Positions 3,038-10,447 of a stretch of 10,850 nt of DNA are shown here, piece by piece. The first letter of the stretch is position 1. Each line of letters opens with the position of its first letter. The DNA is from Candidatus Bathyarchaeota archaeon (GTDB taxonomy: Archaea; Thermoproteota; Bathyarchaeia; 40CM-2-53-6). The translations under genes were made by a program, and so were the position numbers. The notes beneath the pieces are model-generated. The model worked only from the letters and a program-made list of their open reading frames with translations. It did no database searches and was not told where the DNA came from. The DNA is taken from assembly GCA_005888695.1 (NCBI GenBank), contig VBBH01000142.1, forward strand, positions 1 through 10,850. Reading direction: 5' to 3'.

Positions 3038-4741
3038 GTGGACCTAGCCCTAGCACTTCAACTGAACGCCGTGGACCCTCTGAATCCAATTAACCTTCCG
3101 TACTTCGCGGCTCGCAGTCTCCTCCGTCTCACATTAGCCTTCGGACTTAGCCTGGGCTTTGCCCTTGCATATGGAATTGCGGCAGCGATGAGCCGTAGAG
3201 CCTCTCACGTCCTACTTCCAGTACTCGACGTTCTCCAATCGGTCCCAGTTCTAGGCTTCCTTCCTGCGGTCTTTATTTTCGTCCTGACCCGAGTCCCCGG
3301 CGAGGGCGGACAGGAGCTTGCTTCGATAATCTTGATCTTTACGGCAATGGTCTGGGCGATGACGTTCGCAGTAATTACTGGGATTAACCAAATACCGAAT
3401 GATATCAAAGAAGCATCGAAGGCCTATGGGATCACCAGATCCCGATATCTCAGGCAAGTGGTGTTGCCTGCGATTTATCCTGAGCTGATTTGGGGATGCA
3501 TATTGGCATGGGGGGGCGCATGGTACTTCATTCCAGTAGAAGAGTATGCAACATTCGGAATGACGCAAGTGCAACTTAAAGGCCTTGGATTTTTCATAGC
3601 GCAGGCCGCAGCGGAGAGCCGACTCGATTCCGCGATCATTGGCTTGGTAGCCATGGTCCTAGTGATCATCGCCATTAATCGAATAGTCTGGAGACCATTG
3701 GTCGCGAGGACGGAAAAGTACAGGTACGAAGCTACGGGGGGACAAAGAGGATTTCACGCCAGGCACGGCAAACTAAGGTCAAGCCTCCTGAAGTACGAGG
3801 GTCGCATAGCCAACCCGATCGTCACGTTCTTCAAGTACGAGAAAACGAACCTCTCTTCGTTCCTAGAAACTGTTCCGAGAGTACACGTACCGCCCAAGGT
3901 CAGAGAACGACTCGCGAGAATTTTTCTCGTCACTCGGGTGATCGTGATCATAGGATTTCTTGGTCTGATGGTCCTTGTAATATTCTTCCTAGAAAACTCT
4001 CCTATACCAACCTTACAAGCTGCACTGAACCAGATTCAATCCTTCCAACCAATAAAGGGTTGCACAGGCTGTCTCAGTGGTTTCCCACTGCTGGCATATT
4101 CGACAGCTTCATCTCTTCTCAGATTGCTGGCCGCTTATCTCATTGCCCTGGGTTGGACGCTTCTTGCGGGGATTGCTATAGCGAGAAGACAAAAACTAGC
4201 GAAGGCATTGATCCCAATCTTCGACATCGGCCAATCAATTCCTGCAACCGCATTATTTCCGATCGTAACGCTCTTGATTCTGAGCCGGATATCTTCCCCA
4301 ATGGGGATACAACTCGCCTCAATAGTACTTCTTCTCACCGGAATGCAATGGTACCTGCTGTTCAACATAATCGGTGCAATACATAACATTCCCAATGACA
4401 TCTCTGAAAGCACCTCCGCCTACGGCGTTTCTGGCAAGCGGTTCATCCGGGAGATACTCATACCCGCATCCTTCCCTGCGATAATATCGGGAAGCATGCA
4501 GGCGTGGGGTGGTGGTTGGAATGCGACAATAGTCTCGGAATACATAGTCACAGGTCAACAACAAGTACAGCAAGTCGCCGGGCTAGGAGCAGTCTTGGTA
4601 AATGCTAACAATGCAGGGTCCGCAGGGACCGTTGTAATCGCTACCGCGATAATCATCATGACATTAACCATTTTGATTATCAACAGGCTGGTTTGGCACA
4701 GGTTGATGAAGAGAGCCGACAGGTACAAGTTCGAATCCTAG
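3038..4741 (+). CDS. ABC transporter permease, tandem-duplicated NitT/TauT-like (two fused permease halves)
   Basis: A 567-residue membrane protein with two homologous permease halves (about 20-230 and 300-567). Each carries the cytoplasmic EAA loop that contacts the ATPase: EASKAYGITRSRYLRQVVLP at about 125-144 and ESTSAYGVSGKRFIREILIP at about 456-475, each followed by a P-x-I/L-x-x-G and AWGG motif. Each half also ends in the same signature, NRIVWRPLVARTEKY at 214-228 and NRLVWHRLMKRADRY at 549-563, showing internal duplication. This matches the duplicated anion-transport permeases of COG4986, usually around this length. A CTGC pair (C352, C355) lies in the loop preceding the second half. 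The GTG at 3038 is the first possible start after an in-frame stop at 3017-3019; a GTG at 3071 is an alternative that fits the usual N-terminus well. The ATPase gene follows after 18 nt. The transported ion is not deducible. Confidence 0.88.
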   Translation: MDLALALQLNAVDPLNPINLPYFAARSLLRLTLAFGLSLGFALAYGIAAAMSRRASHVLLPVLDVLQSVPVLGFLPAVFIFVLTRVPGEGGQELASIILIFTAMVWAMTFAVITGINQIPNDIKEASKAYGITRSRYLRQVVLPAIYPELIWGCILAWGGAWYFIPVEEYATFGMTQVQLKGLGFFIAQAAAESRLDSAIIGLVAMVLVIIAINRIVWRPLVARTEKYRYEATGGQRGFHARHGKLRSSLLKYEGRIANPIVTFFKYEKTNLSSFLETVPRVHVPPKVRERLARIFLVTRVIVIIGFLGLMVLVIFFLENSPIPTLQAALNQIQSFQPIKGCTGCLSGFPLLAYSTASSLLRLLAAYLIALGWTLLAGIAIARRQKLAKALIPIFDIGQSIPATALFPIVTLLILSRISSPMGIQLASIVLLLTGMQWYLLFNIIGAIHNIPNDISESTSAYGVSGKRFIREILIPASFPAIISGSMQAWGGGWNATIVSEYIVTGQQQVQQVAGLGAVLVNANNAGSAGTVVIATAIIIMTLTILIINRLVWHRLMKRADRYKFES

Positions 4742-4759
4742 CACGAGGATGAGAGCCAG

Positions 4760-5515
4760 ATGACCGAGGAACCAGTTATCCGGATCGACAAGGTATCCAA
4801 GTCTTTTCTAAGCGAAGAAAAGCCTGTTGCGGTCTTGGAGAACGTGTCCTTTAATGTGGGCAAGGAATTCCTTTGCATAGTAGGTCCGAGCGGGTGTGGC
4901 AAATCCACTCTTCTTCGAATGATCGATGGATTAGACAGACCTAGTCAAGGTAACGTGTACTTTCACGGCAAACCAGTCGAAGGCCCGACTCCGATGATGG
5001 GCATGGTATTCCAGACCTTTGCTCTAATACCATGGAAGACAGTGCTAGAGAACGTCGAAATGGGACTCGCATGGATGAAGATCACGGAGGAAGACCGGCT
5101 CAGGCGATCAGAGAAATTTATCCAAGACGTCGGATTAGACGGTTTTGAGGCCTCGTATCCCAAAGAACTATCCGGCGGTATGAAACAAAGAGTTGGAATA
5201 GCACGAGCCCTTGCTTTGGAGCCGGAAGTATTGCTAATGGATGAACCCTTCTCTAGCCTTGACGCGTTGACTGCAGAGGGATTGAGGAAAGAAGTCTTGG
5301 AGATTTGGAGCAATCCGCAGTTCTCCACTAACTCTGTGATAATGGTCACTCATAACGTGCAAGAAGCGGTTGGTATGGCAGACACAGTTATAGTGATGAG
5401 CCCGCGTCCTGGAAAGGTGATCGACAATGTCCGGATCGAGATGGATCGGCCACGGGACCAGAGGGATCCTAGGTTTTACGATTATGTCGATCGGATTATC
5501 TCAAGGATCAGCTAG
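4760..5515 (+). CDS. ABC transporter ATP-binding protein, NitT/TauT (TauB/SsuB-like) family
   Basis: A complete 251-residue nucleotide-binding subunit. Walker A GPSGCGKST is at 42-50, the Q-loop Gln at 85, the signature LSGGMKQR at 137-144, Walker B VLLMDEP at 157-163, the D-loop SSLD at 165-168 and the switch His at 198. The motif order and the FQTFALIPWKTVLENV stretch are typical of nitrate/sulfonate/taurine importers (COG1116). It energises the duplicated permease immediately upstream (18-nt gap), acting on the cytoplasmic face. The ATG at 4760 has GAGG at 4745-4748. It ends right after the core fold and lacks the C-terminal AAA-associated domain found in many longer relatives; that domain is encoded separately on the opposite strand, overlapping this gene's 3' end by 8 nt. 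Confidence 0.9.
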   Translation: MTEEPVIRIDKVSKSFLSEEKPVAVLENVSFNVGKEFLCIVGPSGCGKSTLLRMIDGLDRPSQGNVYFHGKPVEGPTPMMGMVFQTFALIPWKTVLENVEMGLAWMKITEEDRLRRSEKFIQDVGLDGFEASYPKELSGGMKQRVGIARALALEPEVLLMDEPFSSLDALTAEGLRKEVLEIWSNPQFSTNSVIMVTHNVQEAVGMADTVIVMSPRPGKVIDNVRIEMDRPRDQRDPRFYDYVDRIISRIS

Positions 5516-8374: not shown

Positions 8375-8403
8375 GATAGTTGGTGCGGCCGCCGGGATTT
8401 GAA

Positions 8404-8431
8404 TTCCCGGACCATCCTATCCGGATGATCT
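8404..8431 (-). other. tRNA intron 2 (position 53/54, 28 nt)
   Basis: Exon CCCG pairs with intron CGGG as the 4-bp central helix. The 5' bulge is GGA (cut after GG), the 3' bulge AAT (cut after AA), and an 8-bp inner helix GATCATCC with GGATGGTC closes a GGATA loop. Removal restores CCGGG-TTCAAAT-CCCGG, a canonical T arm. All parts fit the archaeal splicing endonuclease rules. Confidence 0.82.
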
Positions 8432-8456
8432 CCCGGGTCGTTGGGTTGGAGGCCCA

Positions 8457-8479
8457 ATGGACGCACAATCCCGTACGCT
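8457..8479 (-). other. tRNA intron 1 (position 27/28, 23 nt)
   Basis: On the tRNA strand exon bases GGAC pair with intron bases GTCC as the 4-bp central helix. The 5' bulge is ATA (cut after AT), the 3' bulge ATT (cut after AT), and the inner intron hairpin is GCGTA with TGTGC around a 6-nt loop. The outer exon-exon helix is weak, so this is a relaxed motif. Cutting at these points joins 27 to 28 and restores the TTGGG anticodon stem. Confidence 0.8.
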
Positions 8480-8516
8480 ATGTCCTAGACCAGGCTAGAC
8501 TACGGCCGCTCGATGG

Positions 8517-8829: not shown

Positions 8830-9081
8830 TTATGGGGCCTGGGATTCTAGCCAATCCCGCCTTGCCGAGCCTCTCGCGGTGAGAACGTACCTGAACCGCC
8901 TTCCCTTCCGCTCCCTCTTGAGCAAACCCTGCCTCCAATACCGAAGCAAAGCCATCTCCACGGCTCTCTGAGACAAATTCAAACCGTCTACCTCTCTCAA
9001 CAACTCGCGAACGCGGTCGCTATCCTCGTCCCCAGAGCCAAGCAACTTTAGAATTCTGATTTTGAGTTGATTGTGTTCCAC
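8830..9081 (-). CDS. Small winged-helix DNA-binding protein (83 aa)
   Basis: The order is helix MEHNQLKIRILKLLGSG, helix SDRVRELLREVDG, recognition-type helix LSQRAVEMALLRYWRQGLL and wing strands KRERKGRRFRYVLTARGSARRDWL: a compact winged helix of the kind seen in archaeal transcription factors. The GTG start at 9081 is supported by GCATAAATC on the minus strand (9107-9115), centred about 29 nt upstream, giving an almost leaderless transcript. After its stop at 8830, another minus-strand frame (to 8651) continues with a hydrophobic, protein-like run ending in ENAFSREGRVSEE; a frameshift truncating a longer protein is possible. It is divergent from the two-winged-helix operon at 9316 and may regulate it. 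The region 8532-8829 on the plus strand shows only an unlikely basic frame. Confidence 0.65.
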   Translation of the reverse strand: MEHNQLKIRILKLLGSGDEDSDRVRELLREVDGLNLSQRAVEMALLRYWRQGLLKRERKGRRFRYVLTARGSARRDWLESQAP

Positions 9082-9233: not shown

Positions 9234-9249
9234 GTAATGTAACACCTTG
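9234..9249 (+). repeat. Direct repeat, copy 2
   Basis: GTAATGTAACACCTTG, ending 27 nt before the TATA element at 9277-9284. A transcription factor site is the simplest reading. Confidence 0.7.
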
Positions 9250-9276
9250 CATTATACCATTCGGGACAGAGAATTG

Positions 9277-9284
9277 TTATATAT
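9277..9284 (+). promoter_or_regulatory. TATA element of the winged-helix/NurA-like operon
   Basis: TTATATAT is a strong match to an archaeal TATA box. Starting 25-26 nt downstream places transcription near 9306, so the translation start must lie after that; this favours the TTG at 9316 over the TTG at 9247. Confidence 0.6.
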
Positions 9285-9315
9285 CAAACCCGAACCTTCA
9301 GCGGGCAGAGACCAG

Positions 9316-9867
9316 TTGAGCACCTTAGAGAACTACAACCCGCCTCAAAACCAGTCTTCTCCACGTAACACTCTTGAGATAACGATCCGCCACCCATCAG
9401 GCATCGAGAAGAAGATCCTCGGGCCCCCGGATGCTGTCCTCAAAGAACTTGTTTCTTACATGTCAACCGTCTATCCGTCCTTGGAACTTGTATCGAAAAT
9501 CATCCTCACAGTGGACGCAAGGGAGTTCATGGACAGCTGCTCGGGGGTCCTTGCAGCAAGCCCAGAAGGGCTAGTAGTATTGAAGGACGTATCCCACCTT
9601 CGGGACCGAGAACTCTTGATGCTCCACCTAGCCGGAGCCAGACTGATGGACATTCTCGGAAAGAAGGAAAACGATGCCTTGTCCCTGGAAGATTTGACTA
9701 GGGTGATGGGCCGACCTACCGGAACAGTGGCAGGAAGGCTGAGTGAGTTATGGAAGGAACAGTTGATCGAACGGGTTGGCAAGGGATCATACCGCCTTAC
9801 AACTATGGGTGCTCGGATAGTTGTGAAGAATCTAATGCCGAGAATGGCAGGAGCCACGGAGAAGTAG
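9316..9867 (+). CDS. Winged-helix protein A, first of two tandem paralogs (183 aa)
   Basis: The protein has an N-terminal domain beginning with strands NTLEITIRHPSGIEKKILG, a helix AVLKELVSYMSTVYPSLELV, and a strand-rich middle (EGLVVLKDVSHL). A helix RELLMLHLAGARLMDILG leads into a C-terminal winged helix (LSLEDLTRVMGRPTGTVAGR, then LSELWKEQLIERV and a KGSYRLTTMGARIV wing). The neighbour downstream has the same layout, so the two arose by duplication. The start TTG at 9316 is chosen because the TATA box at 9277-9284 lies inside the longer frame beginning at 9247, whose extra residues (HYTIRDREL) would come from promoter sequence. It is followed by paralog B after 4 nt and then a NurA-like gene, suggesting an operon. 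The family is not recognised; the fold suggests a DNA-binding role in repair or regulation. Confidence 0.7.
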   Translation: MSTLENYNPPQNQSSPRNTLEITIRHPSGIEKKILGPPDAVLKELVSYMSTVYPSLELVSKIILTVDAREFMDSCSGVLAASPEGLVVLKDVSHLRDRELLMLHLAGARLMDILGKKENDALSLEDLTRVMGRPTGTVAGRLSELWKEQLIERVGKGSYRLTTMGARIVVKNLMPRMAGATEK

Positions 9868-9871
9868 AAAA

Positions 9872-10447
9872 TTGTCTTCTCCAATCCAGCCCACAACTGG
9901 ACCACCAGAAAGGGCCAAGGTCAAGGTAACAATCGAATGGGGAGACATCAAACACACCGTCGAGGGTGACCTTGATGTCGTCGTTCGAGAAGTCATGCAA
10001 TTCGCAGCCAGGGTATTGCCAAACTACTCTCTAGCGTCCAAGCTAACCTTCAGCCCAGACTATTCAACCATGGTCGACGATCTATCAGAGGTTGTCAAAC
10101 TTACGCCAGAAGGCGAAGTGGTGGTGCTGCGACCAGAGATGTCTGCCGAGAACTCGATCCTTCTTGTCCTCTTGGCAGTACGGGTTGCGAATGCCGTCGG
10201 AAGTCGACCAAATGTCGACATGGCTCCTGAAGCCATCAGCAAGTCGATCGGACGCGCGGTCAAGACAGTCAGAAACACGCTAGCCACTATGACCAAGACA
10301 GGAGTGATTGATCGGACAAACGAGGGCGGTTACAAACTCACAATCCAGGGAATTCGTAAGGCACATGAAGCCGCACGCTCGTTAACAGCAAAGCAGGCTA
10401 TTCCTCGGCCGGAGTCATCCGGAAAGGAGGTCCAGACCTCAGGGTGA
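9872..10447 (+). CDS. Winged-helix protein B, second tandem paralog (191 aa)
   Basis: Same layout as protein A: strands AKVKVTIEWGDIKHTVEG, helix DVVVREVMQFAARVLPNYSL, then LTPEGEVVVLRPEMSAENSI aligning with A's ASPEGLVVLKDVSHLRDREL, a helix LLVLLAVRVANAVGS, and a C-terminal winged helix (APEAISKSIGRAVKTVRN with wing GGYKLTIQGIRKA, about residues 115-167). It ends in a polar, probably unstructured tail. The TTG start at 9872 comes 4 nt after the stop of gene A, with GGAG at 9858-9861 about 10 nt upstream, so translation is probably coupled. The unusually strong AAAGGAGG at 10423-10430 near its 3' end is inside a palindrome; see the regulatory entry. Partner proteins may be the NurA-like nuclease downstream. 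Confidence 0.72.
   Translation: MSSPIQPTTGPPERAKVKVTIEWGDIKHTVEGDLDVVVREVMQFAARVLPNYSLASKLTFSPDYSTMVDDLSEVVKLTPEGEVVVLRPEMSAENSILLVLLAVRVANAVGSRPNVDMAPEAISKSIGRAVKTVRNTLATMTKTGVIDRTNEGGYKLTIQGIRKAHEAARSLTAKQAIPRPESSGKEVQTSG

Follow-up and report, generated by a model that had tools for sequence, protein, structure and literature searches.

Within the window, a 10,850-nt stretch of DNA from a Candidatus Bathyarchaeota archaeon, the minus strand raises the question of whether a tRNA gene broken into three pieces can be a working gene, and whether such a gene is exceptional in its lineage. ARAGORN reported no tRNA at this locus, nor did Rfam at its gathering cut-off. A preliminary description had placed a tRNA-Gly(UCC) gene at 8381-8509 on the minus strand, with introns of 23 and 28 nt at positions 27/28 and 53/54. 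An unguided search for bulge-helix-bulge (BHB) motifs and a cloverleaf covered 220 nt around the gene, with a strict BHB candidate defined by a 4-bp helix, 3-nt bulges and an inner helix of at least 2 bp. It yielded 38 BHB candidates and 248 allowed combinations of up to two introns, with a single solution displaying a cloverleaf and CCA, namely the 27/28 and 53/54 introns. Coordinates, strand, anticodon, intron sizes and intron positions are therefore as claimed, and the BHB search that the preliminary description had recommended returned exactly its intron pair. The gene consists of the following features:

8480-8509, minus strand: tRNA-Gly(UCC) exon 1 (positions 1-27), no variation being present over columns 1-30 when the window is aligned with 13 relatives
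8457-8479, minus strand: intron 1, 23 nt, at position 27/28, recognised by a strict BHB motif
8432-8456, minus strand: exon 2 (positions 28-53), with anticodon UCC in the loop CCUCCAA carrying C33, recognised by the cloverleaf
8404-8431, minus strand: intron 2, 28 nt, at position 53/54, recognised by a strict BHB motif and compensatory changes in its inner helix
8381-8403, minus strand: exon 3 (positions 54-73) and encoded CCA, recognised by sequence and the unique cloverleaf

All three exons are contained in one 129-nt gene. Read on the minus strand, exon 1 (GCGGCCG-UA-GUCU...GGAC-A-U) is followed by the 23-nt intron, exon 2 (UGGG-CCUCCAA-CCCAA-CGAC-CCGGG) by the 28-nt intron, and exon 3 is UUCAAAU-CCCGG-CGGCCGC-A-CCA. 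Removal of the introns in silico restores a cloverleaf and then CCA, with 7/7 acceptor pairs, 4/4 D pairs (one G-U), 5/5 anticodon pairs and 5/5 T pairs. Six of the seven other cloverleaf checks on the spliced tRNA hold, the failure being U33. The spliced tRNA had been called perfect, which is wrong at position 33, where the loop CCTCCAA has C33 instead of U33.

Both junctions have the claimed 4-bp central helix and 3-nt bulges, with the cut after the second nucleotide. In the intron 1 motif, GGAC of the exon (22-25) faces GTCC of the intron, with bulges AT^A and AT^T and an inner helix GCGUA/UGUGC. By eye the motif is without an outer helix and is for this reason closer to the relaxed HBh' form. 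In the intron 2 motif, CCCG of the exon (48-51) faces CGGG of the intron, with bulges GG^A and AA^T. Its inner helix, GAUCAUCC/GGAUGGUC, is paired at 8/8 positions in the window, including one G-U.

Two null tests address how readily such a structure arises. Scanning both strands of the window in 356 overlapping 220-nt segments gave solutions in two, both covering the gene, and the same strict search found no further intron-bearing tRNA solution elsewhere in the window. Among 20,000 shuffles of the letters of each intron, a strict motif formed precisely at the junction in 83 cases for intron 1 and in 41 for intron 2, and no shuffle gave both. The whole-precursor minimum-energy fold from RNAfold has a z of -2.31, with 4/200 shuffles as stable. 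As proof of the motifs this fold is weak, containing the first central helix and not the second. The null result from folding two short stretches means little because both cut through introns.

Conservation was assessed in an alignment (A1) of the window and 13 relatives, comprising 14 distinct genes and leaving out G006 (identical to G008), G005 (broken in intron 2), G003 (third intron) and G026 (other second intron). The exons are invariant except for a compensated 31:39 pair and the C33 of the window, and the named exon cloverleaf pairs are formed in 100% of cells. BHB pairs are formed in 94.0% of cells against 89.0% after shuffling, cells with a change on both sides number 20 against 8.5, and the covariation score is 0.233 against 0.132, each with 0/500 shuffles as high, where the shuffles ignore the relatedness of the sequences. 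Two other counts did not rise above the shuffles: double-change pairs (5 vs. 4.4 shuffled, 249/500) and further pair types (11 vs. 12.0, 464/500). Four of the five double-change pairs sit in the intron 2 inner helix, representing 4/7 pairs of that helix in the alignment. The central helices hardly vary because they are made partly of exon letters. For intron 1, covariation is uninformative as proof, as three of its four central pairs never vary and the intron itself is hardly variable. Orthologous copies of intron 1 (L003-L016) are 16-19 nt long, compared with 23 nt in the window.

The surroundings of the gene are conserved as well. Three neighbouring genes lie near it:

8830-9081, minus strand: PaaX-like small protein (Pfam PF07848), adjoining the tRNA gene and on the same strand in relatives
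9247-9867, plus strand: HTH-like protein, recognised by neighbourhood conservation, with a Pfam match below cut-off
9872-10447, plus strand: conserved neighbour, recognised by neighbourhood conservation, with a Pfam match below cut-off

The last of these is probably a distant paralogue of the one before it, judging by each matching the homologues of the other at about 25-30% identity. Order and orientation of the three neighbours are kept in 10/15 named loci, nine of genus g2 (L032, L034, L036-L039, L043, L044, L046) and L040 of family f6, and the locus is therefore considered orthologous. Of the other five, L041, L042 and L045 extend no further than about 1 kb on that side, L035 has one partial end match, and L033 has no neighbour homologue in about 4.4 kb on that side. 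A recent mobile insertion of the locus is not favoured, given the flank order and orientation kept in these 10/15 loci. The 27/28 intron is probably older than the split between families f1 and f6. Elsewhere in the window, 3038-5515 encodes a long ABC permease, of 567 aa and with two PF00528 stretches, and then its ATPase (PF00005), presumably a nitrate/taurine-type layout.

The nearest genome compared, G001, has 23% of sampled 31-mers in common with the window and contains tRNA pieces but no orthologue of the locus. A 24-base word spanning exon and intron was found in 15 stretches, labelled as Candidatus Bathyarchaeota (11), Crenarchaeota archaeon (2), archaeon (1) and bacterium (1, Centralia_MAG_577). 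The stretches come from family f1 genomes and, in family f6, from G026, and are taken as soil because 13/15 labels state a depth of 20 to 40 cm. Among 256 genomes of the class, the 27/28 intron pattern matched 17 (15 of genus g2, one of g3, one of f6), the 53/54 pattern 25, in f1, f3 and f7 (G039), and the strict intron-less pattern three, while 227 matched none of the three. The 53/54-pattern genes read in f1 and f3 are tRNA-Gly. Five of the 21 f1 genomes lack a 27/28 match (G001, G004, G019, G020, G021), which is not proof of absence because these genomes are 52-80% complete.

The genes themselves differ in their interruptions. Two of the intron-less genes, those of G025 and G030, were read over their full length and have an identical acceptor, D stem and T stem, and the relaxed solver also solved the G030 Gly(UCC) gene with no intron. 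By eye, the G026 gene has the 27/28 intron and a second interruption in the anticodon loop, without the 53/54 intron, and the Gly(UCC) gene of G003 (L017) has an extra D-loop insertion and thus three introns. In G005 (L018/L046) the Gly(UCC) sequence stops inside intron 2 in mid-contig, either through misassembly or because the gene is broken. A conserved block near AATCGTAAGGCAGAAAAGAC lies upstream of the tRNA gene in genus g2 (L008-L016, L018) and was not seen in the window.

The paralogous Gly(GCC) genes of f1 apparently also have two introns, at 37/38 and 53/54 (by eye, 53/54 also by pattern; L077, L078, L083, L089, L092, L093 and others), with such copies found in G002, G009, G011, G001, G007 and G015. 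The G010 copy (L228) was left unsolved by the solver. Intron 2 of the UCC gene in G014 (L012/L127) scores 0.92 against its own GCC gene, 0.96 against the best other GCC and 0.81 against the best UCC. It looks as if exchanged between the two paralogues, clearly so in one of 13 genomes. In G003 the best GCC score (0.83) also exceeds the best UCC score (0.77). Exchange as a rule is unsupported, as the best UCC is higher in the other 11/13 genomes.

The explanations that compete for this locus differ in how much of the above they can accommodate. If the cloverleaf were a chance pattern with no tRNA gene behind it, the silence of ARAGORN and of Rfam at the gathering cut-off would be expected, but the segment scan and the intron shuffles, exon conservation in relatives with covariation, and the intron-less counterparts in relatives all speak against it. 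The two null tests and the conservation rule this out, leaving it a negligible probability. The preliminary description had also considered a tRNA pseudogene, to be suspected if a second intact tRNA-Gly(UCC) gene were present and no spliced reads came from this locus. Conservation in relatives makes a pseudogene unlikely; a decayed gene family was rejected on the same ground. In the window gene itself, all stems are intact and U33 is replaced by C.

Position 33 of tRNAs is nearly always U. All 16 family Gly(UCC) orthologues read have U33 (L003-L018, the G006 and G008 genes being identical), as do the G026 gene and three intron-less matches whose pattern allowed either letter. The C33 of the window may be an error, decay of a single copy, or real, and in the tRNA it might hamper decoding. 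A sequencing or assembly error in a gene that truly has U33 would explain a single base deviating from all 16 family orthologues at so constant a position, yet this is a rather unlikely explanation given that other tRNA genes of the lineage appear to have C33. An apparent tRNA-Arg(CCU) of G010 (L216, solved by the relaxed solver) has C33 too, and its counterpart in G002 (L157, unsolved) has matching letters there. Another Arg-like gene has the letters C C U C U there in G002 L156, G010 L220, G030 L259 and G003 L246 (L156, L220 and L259 unsolved). With C33 apparently present in other tRNA genes of the lineage, it may be tolerated here. Considerably less probable than an error is recent decay of the window copy, with U33 lost while the gene family stayed functional. 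It is in keeping with C33 being found in the window alone, against U33 in the 16 UCC orthologues, and with a G005 copy that ends inside intron 2. Set against it are the other exon positions invariant in the 13 A1 relatives, which are intact in the window, the fully paired intron 2 inner helix, and the C33 of the apparent G010 tRNA-Arg(CCU) with the same letters in G002.

The locus is thus very probably a functional Bathyarchaeia gene for tRNA-Gly(UCC), and its sequence predicts a transcript with two BHB introns that would be removed by splicing. For such a gene to be spliced, the endonuclease must accept noncanonical sites, as had been pointed out, and the proposed search for its subunits was run in relatives. 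PF01974 matched above cut-off in all 41 genomes searched, with two or three matches in 35 and one match in six. Endonuclease proteins were examined in G002, which has genes of both catalytic and structural type. The stronger (189 aa) has both endonuclease domains, matches 3p1z with an E of 4.3e-42 and keeps DFAVY, DHAPF and VRKQF, retaining the Tyr, His and Lys that we take to be the catalytic triad. Its Lys42 aligns with the Lys at chain position 44 of 3p1z, presumably the conserved lysine of the Crenarchaea-specific loop. The weaker (176 aa) also has both Pfam endonuclease domains, with DFETF for DFAVY and, by eye, no matching His or Lys. In sequence, the pair fits an (alpha-beta)2 layout.

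In the proposed model, the end of intron 1 would pair with the 3' strand of the D-stem (22-25) and the end of intron 2 with positions 48-51, each pairing giving a 4-bp helix flanked by 3-nt bulges. An (alpha-beta)2-type splicing endonuclease, presumably encoded in the window's own genome and assembled from the two kinds of subunit, would cut both bulges. A ligase, which we take to be RtcB, would then connect the three exons, giving the mature tRNA that serves glycine codons. Reviews link the (alpha-beta)2 endonuclease to noncanonical introns in the passages available (PMC4090602, PMC12397907).

The gene had been put forward as notable for this genome, which a survey of relatives does not support. 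Rfam tRNA matches in G002, G010 and G030 were put through a relaxed BHB solver, the strict solver being too narrow with 12/30 loci solved. The resulting counts are orientation figures, because the solver is rough and may add or miss introns and Rfam favours less interrupted genes: in G002, 30/36 matches were examined and 18 solved, 16 with introns (27 introns); in G010, 35/46 were examined and 24 solved, of which 21 have introns (39 in total, with 15 genes carrying at least two); and in G030, from another family and listed as 100% complete, 36/42 were examined and 25 solved, 14 with introns (21 introns). Many loci stayed unsolved and some placements are doubtful, e.g. L151, L165, L178, L169/L233, L211 and L234. 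A 5.2-kb contig of G010 (C19) carries a bacterial-looking Ile/Ala tRNA pair (L211/L212) that is probably assembly contamination; without these two, G010 has 22/33 loci solved, 20 with introns, and 37 introns. As most solved tRNA genes in the two relatives G002 and G010 are interrupted (16/18 and 21/24), the window gene is not exceptional in its lineage.

Solutions with three introns were obtained for tRNA-Asn, Lys and Ser (G002 L167, L169, L179; G010 L233, L241). Ser(UGA) and, less securely, Lys(CUU) have three introns alike in G002 and G010, the third Lys intron leaving an odd variable region. Asn L167 has three introns in the strict solver and was unsolved in the relaxed run, which was given less upstream sequence.

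Comparable genes have been described in other archaea. Multi-intron genes had been regarded as mainly a feature of Thermoproteales, but such genes are also described in Thaumarchaeota, Caldiarchaeum and soil Asgard archaea (PMC8450103, PMC3293823, PMC11291895, in the parts available). The tRNAscan-SE 2.0 paper, as far as its text was available, gives 673 noncanonical introns in 217 archaeal genomes, with 0.84 intron per gene in Thermoproteales and a maximum of 71 introns in 46 genes (PMC8450103). In Thermoproteales such as Pyrobaculum, single tRNA genes likewise hold at least two short BHB introns outside the canonical position; in the available text of PMC4090602 53/54 is named and 27/28 is not, in a list ending in 'etc.', whereas the window gene comes from Bathyarchaeia, apparently from soil. 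In the wetland-soil Asgard lineages Atabeyarchaeia and Freyarchaeia, 92-95% of tRNA genes are reported to carry introns, many of them in noncanonical places, and over half are interrupted more than once (PMC11291895). These lineages share soil and interrupted tRNA genes with the window's Bathyarchaeia but are a different archaeal group. The split and tri-split tRNA-Gly of Caldivirga maquilingensis also includes an interrupted UCC gene, one of whose breaks lies where the D and anticodon parts meet, at 25/26 (PMC4090602), but there separate transcripts are trans-spliced whereas the window has three exons in one 129-nt gene. The string 'bathyarchae' is absent from the text of PMC8450103 and occurs 0 times in PMC11291895, and among the matches listed from the open-access literature no paper title concerned tRNA introns in Bathyarchaeota or Bathyarchaeia. 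The two-intron type of tRNA gene is hence already known in archaea, with no description for the class Bathyarchaeia found among those same matches.

Noncanonical multi-intron tRNA genes are apparently common in part of this archaeal class, and the window gene was one that ARAGORN and Rfam at cut-off missed. tRNAs seemingly absent from such genomes may therefore be a detection artefact. A broader proposal, tentative and somewhat doubtful, is that tRNA genes of soil Bathyarchaeia are a hot spot of interruption on a par with Thermoproteales and so far undescribed. Nearly all of these genes would then have one to three introns spread over various positions, close relatives would differ by the gain or loss of some introns or by their exchange between paralogues, and several tRNAs would manage without U33. 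The relatives of the window gene form a graded series, from no intron, through 27/28 with an anticodon-loop interruption and 27/28 with 53/54, to three introns, which helps to date intron gain and loss.
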